Source: Pukyongia salina (GTDB lineage Bacteria; Bacteroidota; Bacteroidia; Flavobacteriales; Flavobacteriaceae). Taken from it: a stretch of 64,000 bases of DNA. Of the stretch, positions 867-31,938 are shown piece after piece. Every line of letters starts with the position of its first letter. The first letter of the stretch is position 1. Both the position numbers and the translations under genes were made by a program. The stretch covers positions 2,838,501 through 2,902,500 of the forward strand of contig NZ_CP027062.1 of the NCBI RefSeq assembly GCF_002966125.1. The letters run 5' to 3'. The notes beneath the pieces were generated by a model, which had not been told where the DNA came from, searched no databases, and was given only the letters and a program-made list of their open reading frames with translations.

Positions 867-3800
867 TTAGCTGGACGCTTCTTGCTTTACAGCCTTGAAA
901 TCATTTGTAAGTTTTTGTAATCTAACCCTGGCATCTTTACCGGGCAACTGGTCTGCTCCACTTACCATATTGAGTAAATAAGAAATCTGTGAAACCAGCA
1001 TCTGCTGGGGATAAGCACCTTCGTCGTTCTTAAGTTTTCTTAATACTGAATTTACCTTTTCCAGACGTTCTTGCTTAGCCTTTGCCTTTTTCCCACTCAA
1101 TTCCTCGGCTTCTTCCTCCAGTTGAGCCTGCAATTTTCGGGCTTCGGAAAGCAGATCTATTACCTGATTCTGAAAGGCTAATTGATCCTCGATATTTGCC
1201 TTTGTAATTCCAGATTCGGCTATGCGCGGGTCTATAAGGAGTTCGAAATTTTGTTCCGTTGTTACCCCACCTGCCCGAAGTATAACCTTATAAACCCCTG
1301 GAGCCACTAGCGGGCCACCCCTGTATCGCCTGTCTTCATCTTTTCTCCATGCTCCTTTTTGGCGAAGATTCCAGCTAAAACGATGCAGGCCTGGCTTGGG
1401 ATCCAGTTTTTTGTCTACATAGCGGAAGGTCTCGCTTAAATTCATATCCTCCACAACAACTTCTTTACTTTGCAGTTCCGTACTATCGCTAAAGATCGTT
1501 GCCACCTGCCGATTATGTTCATCTAAGATCTCTATTTGTACACCTCCCTCATGTCCTTCGGGAATATAATAATCGATAATTGCGCTCGCCCCAGGATATT
1601 CGGGGAAATCTGTGTAGGTGGATTTCGGATTTCGATATCGGATCGTATTATCCGGCTTGAACAATACAGCAGAATTTCCAAGATTGTTCACTTGCTGCTG
1701 CCGTAGCGTAGTAATATTATCTAGGATCCAGAAACCTCTTCCCATGGTACTTAGAATAAGATCTCCCCTAAATATTTTAATATCTGTGATAGGCGTTACA
1801 GGTAAATTTTGCTGAAATTCCTTCCAGGACTGTCCATCGTTAAAAGATACAAACACACCGTACTCTGTCCCGGCGAATAAAAGGCCCGGCCGAACAGGAT
1901 CCTCACGAAGCACTCTCGCGTTGAAATCGTCGGGTATTCCATTGGTTATTTTCTCCCAACTCGCACCATAATTGGTTGTTTTATAGAAATACGGTTTTTC
2001 ATCTCCCAGTAAATGCCTGTCTACGGCAATGTAGGCCCTGGCCGGATCGAAATGAGAAGGAGCAACAGATTCTACCCGCCCTCCTTTAGGCAGGTTCTTA
2101 GGAGTAATATTGCTCCAGCTGGCTCCTCCATCTCTTGTTACAGAAACAACTCCGTCGTTGGACCCCACCCATATAAGGCCTTTCACTAAGGGAGATTCCC
2201 TGATGGAATAAAGGGTGCTATAGTATTCTTCGCCTGTGATATCGCGGGTTATAGGACTTCCTGAAATAACCTGTTTATCCGGTTCGAAAGCAGTAAGATC
2301 CGGCGATATCGTTTCCCAGGCTTCGCCACCATTTGTTGTTTTATGAAGATATTGAGAGCCGTGATAGACAACATTTGGATCGTGGGGTGAAACATGAACA
2401 GGCGCTACCCGCTGAAACCGGTACTCCAGATCCTTAGGATTATGCCCGTAAATATTAGATGCACCTACATAATATCCTTTCTCTGTTCCTGTGCGCTTGT
2501 CGAATACACTAAAGCGCCCTTTACAATTAGCGTAGACTATATTGTGGTCGCCGGGTTTAGGTACACCCGGGCCGGTTTCACAACCACCGGTATTTATAAT
2601 CCATCCCCTTCCCGGATACTGAATAGAAGATGGAGGGTTGCTGGGAACTGCAATGGTAGACGAATTATCCTGCATCCCTGCATAGAGCCAATAGGGATAT
2701 TGATCGTCCACTTCCACCTGATATAGTTCGGCAGTTGGCTGGTTAAATTGTGTCGACCATGTTTCACCTCCATTGTGAGACACGTTCGCACCTCCATCGT
2801 TGCATTGAATAAGAAGATCGGGGTTATTGGGATTAATCCAGATATCGTGATTGTCGCCATGAGGTACGCTCATCCTCTTCCAGGTTTTCCCTCCGTCAAC
2901 AGACTTTATTAATGGGTTCGCATTGGAATAAACAATATCAGGATTGGTAGGATCTAATTCTATATTGGTGTAATAAAAAGGCCGGTTTACAAGACGCTCA
3001 TCGCTGGAAACCTGTTTGAAGGATTTCCCCTGGTTCACAGATTTGTAAAGGCCTCTTTCCTCCCCCGGGGCTTCGATCACAGCGTATAAGACGCTGGAAT
3101 CCACAGCAGATACTGCCAGGTCTATCTTTCCAATGAGGCCCTGTGGCAGACCCTCCTTGAGTTTTACCCAGTCTTTTCCTCCGTTGATGGATTTATAAAT
3201 ACCTCCTTCTTCATTAGTTCCTCCGGAGATGATGGTCCATGGCTTCCGCTCTGCTTTCCAAGCTGCAGCATATACGATATTAGGATTTCCGGGCAATAAT
3301 TCCAGATCGGCAAAACCGGTCTTGTCTGAAACAAATAAGACCTTATTCCAGGTCTTGCCACCATCGATAGTTTTGTACACACCTCTCTCGGGGTTTGCTA
3401 TGAAGGCATTACCTATAGCCGCAACCCAAACAATATTATGATTGGTAGGATCGATCTCTACCGCCCCTATCTGGCCTACATTCGATAAACCAATATGCTC
3501 CCACGTCTTACCTCCATCGATGGATTTATACATTCCCTTCCCACTTATCACATTGCTTCGCAATCCATCCGAACCTGTCCCAACGTAGACAATATTCGGA
3601 TCGTTAGCTGCAATTTCTATGGCTCCTATGGAAGGGGTTTTAAAAAACCCGTCCGATACGTTTTTCCAGCTAGTCCCATAGTCTTCCGATTTCCAAACAC
3701 CGCCTCCGGTAGCACCCAGATAAAAGGTGCCGGGCTCCATAGGAGTACCGGTTACAGAGGTAACACGTCCACCGCGTTCGGGGCCAACGGTTCGATATTT

Positions 3801-4181: not shown

Positions 4182-5870
4182 TTACACCTTAATTTGCTTC
4201 TTATACTCTTCCACCATAAATAAGGGATCCTTGTTGAATTCCTTCCAGTGCTCAGATAATTGTTTATACAAGGCATCGAAGGAACTCCAATCGAATTTGG
4301 GATCTTTTATCTCTTTTTTCAACCTTAGGATATAATCCATTAGTTGATAACAACTTGTAAACTGCCCGCAGGCAATTAGCGTATCCATGCGGTTCTTAGC
4401 AATATCTGTTTTATCCCACCAGAGCGTTGTGGGAGTTTCGGAAGCCGTGAGACATACGCTTTTTAATAGTTTGGAAGGCGTCGGTTTTATGTCTTTATTG
4501 TAGTTCAGGTTATTCGAATAAGGTGTTTTCTTACCGTTCAATGCATAGACCGTAGAGGTAATAAGCTTATTTTTCAAGCTTTCTTTGGTGTATAGTAGCT
4601 TGTAGTTAAGACGGCGTATTTGTTTTAGGAAGATATCATTGATCATTTTTTCTCCCGATGTTAGTCTGTCTGTGAGCATTCGCTTTAGCAGGTCGATCCC
4701 CAGTTTCTCAAAACTCATTACATCGTCCAGCAGCGGCTCCGGGATATTATCCTTCAGAAATCTTTTCAAACCGCTTAACCCAAAAACCTTTGTTATACCT
4801 AAAACGATCCCTACCACGGTAAGGGTTATACCCACACCCGCAATTACACTTCCAACTATGTATAAGGAGGTCCAGGCCTGGCCTTTAAATACTTCAAGTG
4901 AGTTTAAGACAATGATAAGTAATCCCAGGACAAGAATGATCCAGTAAAGCGGTTTCAAGCCGAAATATCCAAGTAGCTTCGCAATACTGCTTTTTAGTGA
5001 ATTGCTCTTCACCACAGGGGTTGTATCCTGTTGCCAGGGAATCATTTTATAACTTCCCACATCATTTACTATGATTAGATCCAGCTCTCTGTCCCTACTT
5101 TTCTGTTCACTGATATTGATCATACTTCCTATCCCTTGGTTGTCGGCTATACCCCCATCCATGATCCCTACTCCATCGATAAATCGGTCCAGGCCCTTTA
5201 CAGCTTTATACTTTGCATTGTTATGGTCATTGAAGTAATCGTCCGGGAACACCAAAGGTTCGAAGCCAATTGGAAAGCAGGACGAGGAGGCCACTATATC
5301 CCCTAATTGCACTTTATATTTTATGGCATCTACCTCCCTGTTGTTTAAGGGTTTATTCCCAAAAAGTCCTGTATTCTGAAATCTAAATGCGAGTCCGAAA
5401 GAAAAATCGGTAGCATTAAAACAAAGGTGCTGTACATGTTCCGAAGGGCTGGTCTCGAACATCTTGAAAGAACCGCTAAACAGATCCATTTCGGCATAAG
5501 TAAGTGCAAAGGCATTGATCAACGAACGCTTTTTATACGAATGTTCTTCCCATACCTTGTCGTCTTCAAGTTTTTTTACTGCGGTCTCCAAAAGGACGTC
5601 ATTGGCCGGCTCGAAGGTAGAATAGAATTCAGAAAAAAACGACTGGAAACTCTTTGAAGGGTCCTGTGCTGCTTTGGCGTAGGCAACACCTAATAGGGTA
5701 CCGCCACTTACTGTGCTCAAGGCTTCCACATTCTGCAGTAAGCTTTTGTTTTTAAATGTTACCTTATTGAGATACGAAACTACACCGAGGGCAAAAAAAG
5801 TGGCTCTGTAGCCCCCGCCACTAAAACAAAGGCCAATACTTTCGAAAGGTTTAAAATCTTGAGAATCCAT
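4182..5870 (-). CDS. Patatin-like phospholipase with internal transmembrane segments
   Basis: This 562-residue protein has the patatin signature. The glycine-rich oxyanion loop GGGYRA is at residues 18-23, and the serine motif STVSGG has candidate nucleophile Ser55. The first Gly of the usual GxSxG is replaced by Thr here. An Asp-Gly-Gly motif (MDGGIADNQG) completes the Ser-Asp dyad. There is no signal peptide. Two hydrophobic segments at about residues 308-324 and 335-362 split the protein into an N-terminal catalytic part and a C-terminal soluble part, so it is probably anchored in the inner membrane with the hydrolase in the cytoplasm. Expected activity is lipid acyl hydrolysis; the substrate cannot be told. 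It is monocistronic. Confidence 0.85.
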   Translation of the reverse strand: MDSQDFKPFESIGLCFSGGGYRATFFALGVVSYLNKVTFKNKSLLQNVEALSTVSGGTLLGVAYAKAAQDPSKSFQSFFSEFYSTFEPANDVLLETAVKKLEDDKVWEEHSYKKRSLINAFALTYAEMDLFSGSFKMFETSPSEHVQHLCFNATDFSFGLAFRFQNTGLFGNKPLNNREVDAIKYKVQLGDIVASSSCFPIGFEPLVFPDDYFNDHNNAKYKAVKGLDRFIDGVGIMDGGIADNQGIGSMINISEQKSRDRELDLIIVNDVGSYKMIPWQQDTTPVVKSNSLKSSIAKLLGYFGLKPLYWIILVLGLLIIVLNSLEVFKGQAWTSLYIVGSVIAGVGITLTVVGIVLGITKVFGLSGLKRFLKDNIPEPLLDDVMSFEKLGIDLLKRMLTDRLTSGEKMINDIFLKQIRRLNYKLLYTKESLKNKLITSTVYALNGKKTPYSNNLNYNKDIKPTPSKLLKSVCLTASETPTTLWWDKTDIAKNRMDTLIACGQFTSCYQLMDYILRLKKEIKDPKFDWSSFDALYKQLSEHWKEFNKDPLFMVEEYKKQIKV

Positions 5871-6027
5871 GCTGTAAGAATTTATGCCAACTGCGATTGA
5901 TTATGAAGTTGAACAAAGGTGGTTTCTTCAAAGTTAAGGTTAATTACCGGAGATGTGGATACGTATTTTTACCTAAAAACTTAGCCAAGATAGATTTACA
6001 ATATTACATTCAGCTGTATTAGTACCG

Positions 6028-27683: not shown

Positions 27684-27742
27684 TGTCCGGCGAATCTCTT
27701 CAGAATAAAAAAATAATTCCTACAAAATCACTCAAATATTCC

Positions 27743-27758
27743 TACGTGTTTACACGTA
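27743..27758. promoter_or_regulatory. Palindromic element (candidate operator) of cassette 1
   Basis: TACGTGTTTACACGTA is a perfect 7-2-7 inverted repeat. It starts exactly 107 bases before the start of the -7 box, the same distance as in cassette 2. It looks like a dimeric regulator site acting from upstream, probably as an activator site. The regulator is unknown. Confidence 0.65.
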
Positions 27759-27849
27759 CAAAGACAATATATTCGATGTATTGCATATTTTACTCGTTAT
27801 AAAGCAGCTGCTAACTTATTATTTAACAGTTAGATATACATAAGTGGTC

Positions 27850-27857
27850 TATATTTG
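27850..27857 (+). promoter_or_regulatory. Promoter -7 box of cassette 1
   Basis: TATATTTG matches the Bacteroidota consensus TAnnTTTG and lies 28 bases before the A1 start codon. The -33 region lacks a clean TTG (it reads CAGTTAG), which fits a promoter needing an activator. Confidence 0.65.
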
Positions 27858-27877
27858 TAATACCAAATTTACTACTT

Positions 27878-28510
27878 ATGAAATCGTACCATGCCCCCGC
27901 TGCGATTTTGCTTATTCTAGGTTTAATCGCCAACTCTTCTGCCTGGTCTCAGGTAGGGATCAATACAACAAATCCACGTGCTTCATTAGAAGTTGCCGGC
28001 TCTATGAGTATTTCCAATAGTGTGGAAATAGGCGATTATAGTGGACTAAACGACGCAGACGCGTCTACCTTCCTGATACAGGAAACCAATAATTCTATTA
28101 AATCCCTCGATGTTAGTAATCCAACAGGGGTCGCCTTGGCCTATATCCAGGAATATGTAATTGAGGACCCCAATCTGGATTGGGTGAAAGACTTCGATAC
28201 TGGAATTGATGCTGTAGACTATGTTGTAATAGTAACCTCGGCCAGTTTTAACCAGGAACTAGATCTTACTAATAGTGCCGGAGCCGCGGATAATGCAAGT
28301 ATCCCTTTTTCTTCTGCTTTTATAAAGAATGGCACCTGGCATTTGGTGGCAGACTATCCTCAGGCAGCGAATATAGATGAAACGGCTATGGGGATCTGGA
28401 CGATCAGTACCCTGATATTTTCAAACGACGTTTCCAAACAATATGGAACCATTGGCGTGCCGATGTCCGGTAATTCTACCGGCAGTGCAGTTTCACCAAT
28501 TATAAACTAG
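27878..28510 (+). CDS. Secreted cassette protein A1
   Basis: The 210-residue product has a signal peptide (to about AWSQ). The mature N-terminus QVGINTTNPRASLEVAGS is a repeat-like start common to Bacteroidota surface and fibre-like proteins. A beta-rich domain follows with DWVKDFDTGIDAVDYVVIVTSASF, the motif NGTWHLVADYP, and the end GNSTGSAVSPIIN. The closest relative is A2 at 30000 (same length, most segments conserved). More distantly it shares layout with B and C proteins. It is the first gene of a three-gene operon with its own promoter. No T9SS tail is seen; it is likely periplasmic or exported. Function is unknown. Confidence 0.8.
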   Translation: MKSYHAPAAILLILGLIANSSAWSQVGINTTNPRASLEVAGSMSISNSVEIGDYSGLNDADASTFLIQETNNSIKSLDVSNPTGVALAYIQEYVIEDPNLDWVKDFDTGIDAVDYVVIVTSASFNQELDLTNSAGAADNASIPFSSAFIKNGTWHLVADYPQAANIDETAMGIWTISTLIFSNDVSKQYGTIGVPMSGNSTGSAVSPIIN

Positions 28511-28519
28511 GCCCGTACT

Positions 28520-29146
28520 ATGAGAAAACATTACTTAATAGCGCTCTTAACCGTAAGTACAATTGCTACAGCACAGATAGGAATAGGTACAGACAGGCCT
28601 TTGGCCGATCTTCATATTGCCGGTGGTGCTTTGGTACAGGGAGGTTTTACCACACAAAACCTCAATACGGTTTCTTCAACTGAAGAAGATTTTAAACTGG
28701 TTACCCGGGTTACAAACTCCACCCCGGTTGGAAAGATCACCATTCTCGATACGGACGTTTTAAATGTTGCTCCGGTAAACACGGTAAATTACCACTTTAC
28801 AAACGTAAATCTGGACAATCTGGACGATGTAAATCTACAATATGATGTAGACAAATACGTAGTGGGGGTGGCAAACTTCCGCCACGTTGGTGATGCCATT
28901 CAAAAAGTACCGGGTGGAGATAACTTTTCTATTGGCCATTTTGTAGTTCGTACTTTTAAGAGCGGTGGAACCTGGCATCTACAGATAAAGAATGAGGAAC
29001 TCGACCTTTTGGCAACTAATTCCCTGGAGTATTATATCCAGTTGATCGTTTACGACAAGAAGTATTTTCGTGATCTTCCTGTGATCACAACAAACCTTGG
29101 TGGGTCCAATACCGGAACCGCTTCATCCATTCCTGTTTTTGAATAG
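28520..29146 (+). CDS. Secreted cassette protein B1
   Basis: This 208-residue product has a signal peptide (MRKHYLIALLTVSTIATAQ) and the mature start IGIGTDRPLADLHIAGGA. Characteristic segments are STEEDFKLVTRVTNSTPVGKITILDTDVLNVAPVN, YVVGVANFRHVGDAI, SGGTWHLQIKNEELDL and IVYDKKYFRDLPVITTNLGGSN. It ends with a TGTASSIPVF tail like the other cassette proteins. It begins 9 bases after A1 and ends 6 bases before C1, so translation is tightly coupled. The paralogue is B2 at 30651. No catalytic motif is seen, and a structural role is likely. Confidence 0.8.
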   Translation: MRKHYLIALLTVSTIATAQIGIGTDRPLADLHIAGGALVQGGFTTQNLNTVSSTEEDFKLVTRVTNSTPVGKITILDTDVLNVAPVNTVNYHFTNVNLDNLDDVNLQYDVDKYVVGVANFRHVGDAIQKVPGGDNFSIGHFVVRTFKSGGTWHLQIKNEELDLLATNSLEYYIQLIVYDKKYFRDLPVITTNLGGSNTGTASSIPVFE

Positions 29147-29152
29147 TTAATT

Positions 29153-29815
29153 ATGAAAGATCTTTACACTCTTACCGTATTATTAGGAATTACATTTAAT
29201 TCTGTTTTTGCACAGGTTGGCGTTAATACAACTACCCCAACAGCTACTTTGGAAGTTGTTGGTGATGTTTTAGTTGATTCGGAATTATATCTGGAAAACC
29301 CCGGGGACAATTCCAATATCAGGGGTTCTAAATTTTTAGTTCGTACTACGGGTAATCAGTTGTCTCGATACGATATTACCAATAGTAAGTACGGACCCAT
29401 AAATTACGTAGAGTTTGAATTTCAGAACTTGTCGGCCAGCGGATTGTTAGATTATGACACTAAGATCTCGACAGATGACTATTTAGTAAGTATACAAGGA
29501 TATTCATGTGGGATCGCCGGAGCCGGAAGAACAGGAAGTATAATGCCTAGTAGTGCTCTTTCCACCTTAAGCATAGAAGGTTACCAGATATACGCCTATC
29601 CTAATACAACCACCAACACATGGTTTTTAAGGGCATTTGTGAATAATTCCACATGGCAACGTTACAACGGGACTACCTATGTGGATACCGAAATAGACAT
29701 GTGGCTCAATGTCATGATCTATAGAAAGGGCTTTATCGCAAAAGCCCAAAACGACATTACTGTAGATATGTCGAATTTGGCAACGGGAACAGCTACACTA
29801 CCCATAGGGTTCTAA
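29153..29815 (+). CDS. Secreted cassette protein C1
   Basis: This 220-residue product has a signal peptide (to VFAQ) and the mature start VGVNTTTPTATLEVVGDVLVDSELYLENPG. Conserved with C2 are SKYGPINYVEFEFQNLSASGLLDYDTKIS, GYQIYAYPNTTTNTWFLRAFVN and DMWLNVMIYRKGFIAK. The end LATGTATLPIGF carries the shared TGTA signature. It is the last gene of cassette 1; the second cassette's promoter begins about 45 bases after its stop, and no terminator hairpin is visible, so read-through into cassette 2 is possible. Function is unknown. Confidence 0.8.
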   Translation: MKDLYTLTVLLGITFNSVFAQVGVNTTTPTATLEVVGDVLVDSELYLENPGDNSNIRGSKFLVRTTGNQLSRYDITNSKYGPINYVEFEFQNLSASGLLDYDTKISTDDYLVSIQGYSCGIAGAGRTGSIMPSSALSTLSIEGYQIYAYPNTTTNTWFLRAFVNNSTWQRYNGTTYVDTEIDMWLNVMIYRKGFIAKAQNDITVDMSNLATGTATLPIGF

Positions 29816-29862
29816 AAACTCTATTTCATAACTTTTTCCTACATTTTTCTAAGTTTCATTCC

Positions 29863-29878
29863 TACGCGTATACACGTA
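29863..29878. promoter_or_regulatory. Palindromic element (candidate operator) of cassette 2
   Basis: TACGCGTATACACGTA keeps the 7-2-7 inverted repeat of cassette 1 with one mismatched pair. It starts exactly 107 bases before the start of the -7 box at 29970. Confidence 0.65.
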
Positions 29879-29969
29879 CTTTTGATATATTTTCGATGTA
29901 AAGCAAAATTTAATCGTTATCCAACATGTTCTAAAATTTTCTTTAACAATAAGTTATCCGCCCAGGGAT

Positions 29970-29977
29970 TATCTTTG
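29970..29977 (+). promoter_or_regulatory. Promoter -7 box of cassette 2
   Basis: TATCTTTG fits the TAnnTTTG consensus and lies 30 bases before the A2 start codon, equivalent to 27850-27857 in cassette 1. As there, no clear -33 TTG is present. Confidence 0.65.
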
Positions 29978-29999
29978 TAGTACCCAAATTTTAGTACTT

Positions 30000-30638
30000 A
30001 TGAAATCGAGTTTTGCCCCCGCTTTAATATTGTTTATCTGCTTGCTATTGGTAACTGCCCCCGCTTTTACTCAAGTTGGAATAAACACCACAAATCCAAG
30101 AACCACATTAGAGGTAGCCGGCAATGCTGAGATAACAGGTTCACTGTCTATAGGGAATTACGACCCTCTTGCAGATGGAGAAGCATCTACATTTCTCATA
30201 CAAGATGAGAACGACAACGAGGAAATTAAAACCCTGGATGTAAGTAATCCAACCGGAGCTGCTCTTGCCTATGTTCAGGAGTATATAATTACCAATCCGG
30301 ACCAAGACTGGGTACGTGATTTCGATACCGGGGTCGATGCCAGTGAATTTGTACTTATAACGATATCGTCTTATTTCGATCTGGAGCTAAATACTAGTTC
30401 CTCATCGGGTGCTGAAGATAATTCGAGTTTACCTTATACAGCTACATTTATTTCGGGAGGAACCTGGCATATCATTGCAGATTATCCCATGGTAGCTAAT
30501 CTGGATCCAAGTGCAACCGGAACGTGGACAATTTCCACACTAATTTTTTCGAAAGACCTTTCTAAGCAACTGGGTAGTATTGATATCCCTATGTTAAATT
30601 CTACCACAGGAAGCGCAGTAACTCCCATTTTAGATTAA
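30000..30638 (+). CDS. Secreted cassette protein A2
   Basis: This 212-residue product is the paralogue of A1. It has a signal peptide (to AFTQ) and the mature start VGINTTNPRTTLEVAGNAEITG. Segments kept in both copies are ASTFLIQ, IKTLDVSNPTGAALAYVQEY, DWVRDFDTGVDASEFV, GGTWHIIADYPMVANLD, GTWTISTLIFSKDLSKQ and the end STTGSAVTPILD. An insertion in the linker (DENDNEEIKT) is the main length difference. It is the first gene of cassette 2. Divergence from A1 is substantial, so the duplication is old or the copies are evolving apart. Confidence 0.8.
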   Translation: MKSSFAPALILFICLLLVTAPAFTQVGINTTNPRTTLEVAGNAEITGSLSIGNYDPLADGEASTFLIQDENDNEEIKTLDVSNPTGAALAYVQEYIITNPDQDWVRDFDTGVDASEFVLITISSYFDLELNTSSSSGAEDNSSLPYTATFISGGTWHIIADYPMVANLDPSATGTWTISTLIFSKDLSKQLGSIDIPMLNSTTGSAVTPILD

Positions 30639-30650
30639 ATGTATAGAAGT

Positions 30651-31274
30651 ATGAAAAAAATTACACTGATTCTCTTAATTTTTAGTACAACCATCTTTGC
30701 GCAAATTGGGATTGGTACAGACAACCCGCAGGCAGATCTCCACGTTGCCGGGGATATGCTAATTAGAGATGAATTTAAATTAGGAGCCCTGGGAACAGTA
30801 GCAAGTACCGATGAAGATTTTATGCTGCTCACCCGCTCGAAAACTTCAAATCCGGTTGGCAAGGTGACAAAACTTGATGTGAGCGAACTATCGGTTGCAC
30901 CGGTAAACATTGTAGACTACAGTTTTAGCAATATTTCCTTAGACAACCTTAGAGATGTTAACCTTCAGTACGATGCATCGAAATATATTGTGGGTGTGGC
31001 CAATTTCAGATATCTGGGCGACCCCATTAAAAAAGTGAATGCCGGTGGAACCAAATCTATTGGAAACTTTGTTGTACACACCTTTATTAGCGGTGGTACC
31101 TGGCACCTGGAGATAAGAAATCAAACCCTAGACCTGGATCCGTCAGATTCTGTAAGTTACGAGATCACCTTAGTGGTATACGATAAGTCCTATTTCCGAT
31201 ATTTAAATCCTATTACCACCGACCTTGGAGGTAATAACAGCGGAAGTGCCTCTTCAATACCAAACCTATATTAA
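30651..31274 (+). CDS. Secreted cassette protein B2
   Basis: The start is taken at the Met opening the signal peptide (MKKITLILLIFSTTIFAQ); an earlier in-frame ATG directly after the A2 stop adds four residues. The product has 207 residues. It matches B1 in IGIGTDNPQADLHVAGDM, STDEDFMLLTRSKTSNPVGKVTKLDVSELSVAPVN, YIVGVANFRYLGDPIKK, SGGTWHLEIRNQTLDLDP and VVYDKSYFRYLNPITTDLGGNNSGSASSIP. The gap to A2 is 12 bases and to C2 7 bases. It is a likely structural protein of the cell surface or periplasm, of unknown role. Confidence 0.8.
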   Translation: MKKITLILLIFSTTIFAQIGIGTDNPQADLHVAGDMLIRDEFKLGALGTVASTDEDFMLLTRSKTSNPVGKVTKLDVSELSVAPVNIVDYSFSNISLDNLRDVNLQYDASKYIVGVANFRYLGDPIKKVNAGGTKSIGNFVVHTFISGGTWHLEIRNQTLDLDPSDSVSYEITLVVYDKSYFRYLNPITTDLGGNNSGSASSIPNLY

Positions 31275-31281
31275 ATCAACC

Positions 31282-31938
31282 ATGAGAAAGCTTTTTATAA
31301 TCTGTATACTGTATTCATTCACCCAGGGACTTACCGCCCAGGTAGGAATAAATACTAACTCCCCTAATTCTACCCTCCATGTGGATGGTGACGTAATTAT
31401 GGACAATGCATTATACCTTGAAAACCCGGGTGCGTCGTCTAAAATTCGTAATTCTAATCTTCTTATTTCACTTCAGAATAGCGATATAGTGGAATACGAT
31501 ATCGATGTAAGCAAATACGGTCCTATTAATTATACCGAATTTGTTTTCAGAAACTTATCTGCAGATGGACTTCAGGATTACGACACCAAGATTTCCATAG
31601 ACGATTATATTGTTACTGTACAGGGTTATTATTACCTGGAAGCCGGTACCGGTGATACCGATGTAATGACCAACAGTAACAACGGTAATGATAATATTGA
31701 AGGCCATCAGATCTATGCCTACAAGAATACTACCACCAATACATGGTTTATTAGAGCCTTTATCAATGATGCTGTCTTTAAAACGAGAGTTGCAGGAGTA
31801 TTTTTAGATACCCCGGTCGATATGTACCTTAACCTGATCATTTACAGACGAGGGTTTATTTCGAAAGAACTGAACTCACTAAGCGTGGATATGGGGAACC
31901 TCGAAACAGGTACAGCTCCGCTACCTGCCGGATTCTAA
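31282..31938 (+). CDS. Secreted cassette protein C2
   Basis: The start is at the Met opening the signal peptide (MRKLFIICILYSFTQGLTAQ). The longer frame would overlap B2 by 50 bases and add residues with no role. The 218-residue product matches C1 in VGINTNSPNSTLHVDGDVIMDNALYLENPG, SKYGPINYTEFVFRNLSADGLQDYDTKISIDDYIV, GHQIYAYKNTTTNTWFIRAFIND, LIIYRRGFISKEL and the end LETGTAPLPAGF. It completes cassette 2. No catalytic residues or T9SS tail are visible. Confidence 0.8.
   Translation: MRKLFIICILYSFTQGLTAQVGINTNSPNSTLHVDGDVIMDNALYLENPGASSKIRNSNLLISLQNSDIVEYDIDVSKYGPINYTEFVFRNLSADGLQDYDTKISIDDYIVTVQGYYYLEAGTGDTDVMTNSNNGNDNIEGHQIYAYKNTTTNTWFIRAFINDAVFKTRVAGVFLDTPVDMYLNLIIYRRGFISKELNSLSVDMGNLETGTAPLPAGF

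Follow-up and report, generated by a model that had tools for sequence, protein, structure and literature searches.

Two divergent copies of a three-gene cassette in Pukyongia salina encode secreted paralogs that may form heterotrimeric surface fibers

Two Ordered Trios of Secreted Paralogs

The window analyzed here is a stretch of 64,000 nt from the genome of Pukyongia salina, in which six genes, all on the forward strand, are arranged as two cassettes. In cassette 1, A1 (27878..28510), B1 (28520..29146; a paralog of A and C), and C1 (29153..29815; a paralog of A and B) encode secreted proteins of 210 aa, 208 aa, and 220 aa, respectively; in cassette 2, A2 (30000..30638), B2 (30651..31274), and C2 (31282..31938) encode proteins of 212 aa, 207 aa, and 218 aa, the start of B2 being taken at an internal ATG. 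The open reading frames lie, in one direction, where the original prediction had placed two ordered A-B-C trios, and the lengths of equivalent members are as close as it described (210/212, 208/207, and 220/218 aa). The intergenic gaps are 9 nt (cassette 1) and 12 nt (cassette 2) between A and B, and 6 nt and 7 nt between B and C; a single mRNA most likely encodes A, B, and C. Alignment of equivalent members gave 58% identity for A1/A2, 60% for B1/B2, and 54% for C1/C2 compared with ~20–30% between non-equivalent members, so that the best match of each protein is indeed the one at the same position in the other cassette. All six proteins begin with a hydrophobic segment that ends in ...AQ or ...SQ/TQ. 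Such N-termini are typical of flavobacterial signal peptides, and the predicted signal peptides of all six proteins are borne out to this extent.

None of the six proteins matches a Pfam or NCBIfam family at the cut-off, PHROGs gave weak matches without known function that are mostly at the N-terminus, and searches of the whole window with Rfam and for tRNAs returned nothing. The claim that the proteins lack a recognized domain holds for these family collections, but the mature N-terminus is a known trimeric-fiber motif that is described later. Three-gene units without a Pfam or NCBIfam family are easily overlooked. In the genome of P. salina itself, the only full-length matches are these six proteins; approximately 20 further secreted proteins have only the N-terminal capping-loop motif in common with them.

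We compared A, B, and C by profile–profile analysis (hhalign) using class alignments with 22 orthologs per class and obtained E values of 6e-30 (A-B), 6e-30 (A-C), and 8e-28 (B-C) with a probability of 99.8%, in alignments that span ~190–200 columns, that is, the full length. Judged from these profiles, A, B, and C are full-length homologs and distant siblings of each other, a point absent from the original prediction. This homology implies that duplication took place at two levels, first an old triplication from which A, B, and C arose and later a doubling of the trio as a whole. Between equivalent members of the two cassettes, third codon positions are only 34–39% identical and dS is saturated, and the duplication of the cassette is old and far beyond chance. 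In separate phylogenetic trees of A, B, and C built from 43 complete trios, cassette 1 falls in a type-1 clade that extends beyond the host genus to Altibacter, Halomarinibacterium, and others, and cassette 2 falls in a type-2 clade, and both clades are monophyletic in all three trees with support of at least 0.985. Because the three trees agree in this respect, the cassettes are older than the genus and their subunits were never swapped; in age and INDEPENDENCE, the two cassettes are old paralogs without subunit exchange. A recent duplication or an assembly artifact was rejected given the saturated third positions and the presence of each cassette's own orthologs in other genomes. Some genomes, for example, G302, have two trios at distant places, demonstrating that tandem linkage is not required.

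Promoter Regions of the Two Cassettes

Each cassette lies behind its own promoter. Most flavobacterial trios are preceded by a conserved promoter region in which a direct repeat is accompanied by TTCCTAC elements, a TTTAACA box, and a TAnnTTTG element. The direct repeat has the consensus TCG(A/T)TGTAAT(G/A)CA with starts that are 21 bp apart. Upstream of cassette 1 it reads TCGATGTATTGCA-N8-TCGTTATAAAGCA (27773..27806, forward strand), again with a distance of 21 bp between repeats, and upstream of cassette 2 it reads TCGATGTAAAGCA-N8-TCGTTATCCAACA (29893..29926, forward strand). The 3.18-Mb genome contains exactly two occurrences, both at the cassettes, and a control pattern had zero matches; when up to two mismatches are allowed, every match in eight relatives is at a trio promoter. 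The direct repeat is, from its distribution, a dedicated operator of the cassettes. Direct repeats that are two helical turns apart are typical of LytTR-type regulators, and an activator of this kind would act on both cassettes. The promoter alignment additionally places a –7 element of the Bacteroidota type at 27850..27857 in cassette 1 (TATATTTG, which we take to be such an element) and at 29970..29977 in cassette 2 (TATCTTTG), both on the forward strand.

Equally far upstream of both cassettes lie a palindrome (27743..27758, no strand assigned; TACGTGTTTACACGTA), which is not conserved in most relatives, and a palindrome-like sequence (29863..29878, no strand assigned; TACGCGTATACACGTA). 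Exact or near-exact copies of TACGTGTTTACACGTA are found elsewhere in the genome, including near a gene for a LacI-type regulator and near a gene for a very long repeat protein with a PorP/SprF-like neighbor. We rejected TACGTGTTTACACGTA as the key regulatory site because it is present only at both cassettes and one cassette of a relative and has several other near-exact genomic copies.

Distribution and Order of the Trio

In a sample of the host family, full-length matches were identified in 16 of 397 genomes (10 of 237 genera), and all 16 encode exactly three or exactly six of these genes. As up to eight candidates were scored per genome, the maximum of six was not imposed by the search. The trio is present in all seven species of the host genus that were examined, with one metagenome-derived copy having a broken C2, and reaches other marine Flavobacteriaceae. 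A scan of named genomes using the B-class alignment as a query identified loci in Aureitalea, Pukyongia, Altibacter, Ulvibacter, Aequorivita, Leeuwenhoekiella, Aureisphaera, Halomarinibacterium, Bizionia, and Faecalibacter, among others. In a second, large genus from another family (g238; by inference probably Chryseobacterium), the tip domain was found in approximately two thirds of the species (96 of 148), mostly in threes (exactly three copies in 64 of the 96). All 18 trio loci that were fetched from this genus have the order A-B-C, and one has a frameshifted C. At locus L167, the C gene is frame-shifted (2332-3242) and a C-like tip without the capping motif is encoded ~2 kb downstream (5326-5958). 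A trio fragment in a metagenomic bin labeled SAR324 (L125) is most likely mis-binned flavobacterial DNA.

In a search for the A-B-C gene order, all complete trios that were inspected had it (~50 loci from two families; L071-L089, L097-L130, and L153-L172), and incomplete trios are located at contig ends. Members were assigned to classes by similarity or with class HMMs, for which most trio proteins score ~200–350 with their own class versus 40–100 with the others. A, B, and C thus do not occur separately in most genomes, and no known single-protein family explains them. The proposal that they form an obligate complex, of which the organism uses two versions, gains support from the counts of three or six, the fixed order, and the 64 of 96 species with threes in the second genus; that the trio is obligate is strongly supported. 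Among the clustered neighbor genes, none for a regulator or for secretion consistently accompanies the trio, and there are no phage genes; the conserved neighbors likewise include no usher, chaperone, or sortase. A conserved functional neighbor was rejected because neighbors vary between genera or mirror shared chromosomal synteny.

Fiber Motif, Predicted Tip, and a Possible Heterotrimer

A profile of the family matched the PDB sequences of the Bdellovibrio MAT Bd2133 (8ond, E value 4e-8), 8ojn, 8ol4, and the MyRF stalk 7dc3, in all cases through an N-terminal motif, V-G-I-(N/G)-T-x-x-P-x-x-x-L-x-V; the matches to Bd2133 and the other MATs cover residues 17–67. The motif V-G-G/N-x-x-x-P-x-x-x-L is found in nearly every trio protein (QVGINTTNPRASLEV in A1) and begins right after the signal peptide (residues 19–25) in classes A, B, and C. 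This capping loop, for which a consensus has been published, is part of intertwined trimeric β-prisms in MAT fibers (PMC10769870), and the MyRF stalk is a β-helical homotrimer (PMC8326128). The trio proteins resemble the MATs of Bdellovibrio bacteriovorus in having the motif V-G-(G/N)-x-x-x-P-x-x-x-L, secretion, several paralogs per genome, and, by prediction, a β-rich C-terminal tip; however, MATs are typically ~1,000 aa with a conserved N-terminal domain of ~130 aa (PMC10769870), whereas the trio chains are ~210 aa without that domain. Unlike MATs, the trio is an obligate three-gene set. Given the absence of the defining ~130-aa domain, we refer to the trio as MAT-like rather than including it in the MAT superfamily. 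The same stalk motif occurs in MyRF and phage S74 tail fibers, where the stalk is trimeric and β-helical, but MyRF has an S74/ICA chaperone domain and is a homotrimer (PMC8326128), whereas Pfam and NCBIfam searches of the trio proteins found no S74 peptidase/ICA domain.

Neither Pfam nor NCBIfam identified a T9SS C-terminal sorting domain in the trio proteins, a result that leaves no visible route of export across the outer membrane and counts against a surface fiber. Together with the signal peptides, it would suit an obligate complex kept in the periplasm or envelope, where it would bind or serve as a structural component without taking part in adhesion. We consider such a location very unlikely because the capping-loop motif has been described in surface or stalk proteins, and the ~20 other secreted motif proteins of the genome fit a general use in surface fibers, without proving it.

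The AlphaFold2 models of A1 (mean pLDDT 69) and B1 (mean pLDDT 79, ~84–95 in the tip core) have a predicted β-sandwich in the C-terminal half, with good confidence in B1; the N-terminal 40 residues are modeled with low confidence. The top rows of VIA-align for both models are H-type lectins, which have a six-stranded sandwich fold (Z 4.7–5.4, tied with others), with the tips of trimeric phage tailspikes or pyocin fibers close behind (Z ~4.3–5.4 for lectins and tips together), and other weak matches include Ena endospore pili and minor pilins. In Foldseek, the resemblance of the tip to lectins is weak (E above 0.05), and the H-type lectin Pfam model did not match any of the six proteins up to an E value of 1. 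Because Z scores of ~4.3–5.4 may reflect only a common arrangement, the similarity to lectins and tailspikes is treated as a lead. H-type lectins and phage tailspike tips are trimeric. The weak fold likeness to H-type lectins (Helix pomatia agglutinin, the discoidin domain) and tailspike tips concerns assemblies of one chain, whereas the trio has three different chains without a match to those sequence families. A phage search gave no match for B1 or C1, viral contigs gave only two partial matches, and Foldseek against viral models gave one match with E below 0.001, to an uncharacterized phage protein with 12% identity; a phage or prophage origin was rejected because B1 and C1 have no phage match.

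The weak matches to Ena pili and minor pilins raise the question of whether A, B, and C could follow one another as segments, or serve as minor and major subunits, in a longer stacked structure of another stoichiometry, either a pilus-like appendage or a matrix polymer. Genes for stacked appendages usually lie in one operon in a fixed order; however, the chains have nearly equal lengths and the same domain plan without any anchor or tip specialization, and the lack of an usher, chaperone, sortase, or secretion gene among the conserved neighbors also argues against this arrangement, which we regard as quite improbable.

The three classes differ in 29–34 private conserved positions each. At one shared position at a strand end, the residues of A/B/C are S/D/R in the trios of Flavobacteriaceae and D/E/K in those of the second genus; in C this position is basic in all 60 sequences, and in longer relatives outside trios it is mostly neutral (N or S). 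At the residue after the capping-loop proline, A has R and B often E/Q, versus E in A and often K in B across the lineage split. These class-specific charge patterns, which were chosen after inspection and are based on one lineage split, would fit contacts between unlike chains. The C-termini also differ by class, being nearly all ...P-x-G-F in C (C1 and its orthologs), ...P-(I/L)-(I/L)-(N/D) in A, and ...P-x-(L/F)-x in B in the class alignments.

The solved MAT and MyRF fibers are trimers of a single chain (PMC10769870, PMC8326128), and the main text of the MAT study makes no mention of hetero-assembly (PMC10769870). A, B, and C, which have the same motif and belong to one fold family, might by analogy each form their own homotrimer, giving three small co-expressed fibers for one target or pathway with no mixed trimer. 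This would leave the class-specific residues at equivalent positions, the invariant A-B-C order, and the absence of single or double sets in the host family unexplained, and we judge it unlikely.

The occurrence in threes, the constant gene order, the fold common to all chains, their trimeric motif, and the lack of any separately occurring member in the host family instead lead us to lean, by a small degree, toward an obligate heterotrimeric, MAT-like surface fiber made in two co-regulated versions. A, B, and C would be diverged copies of one secreted fiber subunit, each with a signal peptide, one capping-loop turn contributing to a trimeric β-prism stalk, and a C-terminal β-sandwich tip. Once exported by Sec, one chain each of A, B, and C would assemble into an obligate heterotrimer, a pseudo-threefold A:B:C fiber whose three tips form a single head that would probably act as an adhesin for glycans or surfaces. 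The organism would have two such fibers, A1B1C1 and A2B2C2, probably co-activated through their matching dedicated operators. A role of the complex as a surface fiber or adhesin is plausible from the fiber motif and the predicted tip, and we infer the 1:1:1 stoichiometry, the surface location, and glycan binding. The three chains are most likely strands of a small sticky surface fiber of a kind that has not been described before, and a literature search on the trio or on heterotrimeric bacterial fibers found nothing relevant, which agrees with the original statement that no described system is known to have this layout.

Complement C1q has A, B, and C chains that are encoded by adjacent genes and form a heterotrimeric binding head with a collagen stalk. 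The trio resembles C1q, by analogy only, in that three paralogous chains from adjacent genes would form one heterotrimeric head; C1q is unrelated in sequence and has the collagen stalk. A stronger reading, which is possible but which we hold with slightly more doubt than belief, is that the trio is the first obligate heterotrimeric phage-fiber-like adhesin in bacteria, in which three paralogous chains, their order fixed across two families, form a 1:1:1 head with three different faces as a counterpart of C1q, with two parallel versions and one dedicated regulator. If A:B:C is a heterotrimer, it would show how a homotrimeric fiber became an obligate three-chain complex, would unite three distinct binding faces in a single head, and would provide a natural system for the evolution of hetero-oligomers in which longer stand-alone relatives persist. 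The trio further suggests that there is a dedicated regulator and an unexplored surface function.

Stand-alone or paired relatives in the second genus have the same tip, most of them behind two to four capping motifs; the general plan is a stalk with a tip, of which the trio chains are the shortest form. This genus also has two-gene units encoding relatives of ~245 aa (L090 9049-10617, L170 963-2487, and L171 1469-2993), several with two capping motifs, which are possibly intermediate between single-chain and three-chain fibers. In P. salina itself, clusters of secreted capping-loop proteins without the trio tip are encoded at ~637–646 kb and 2450–2465 kb (L013-L019, L021, L022, L025, and L028) and are possibly other trimeric fibers.
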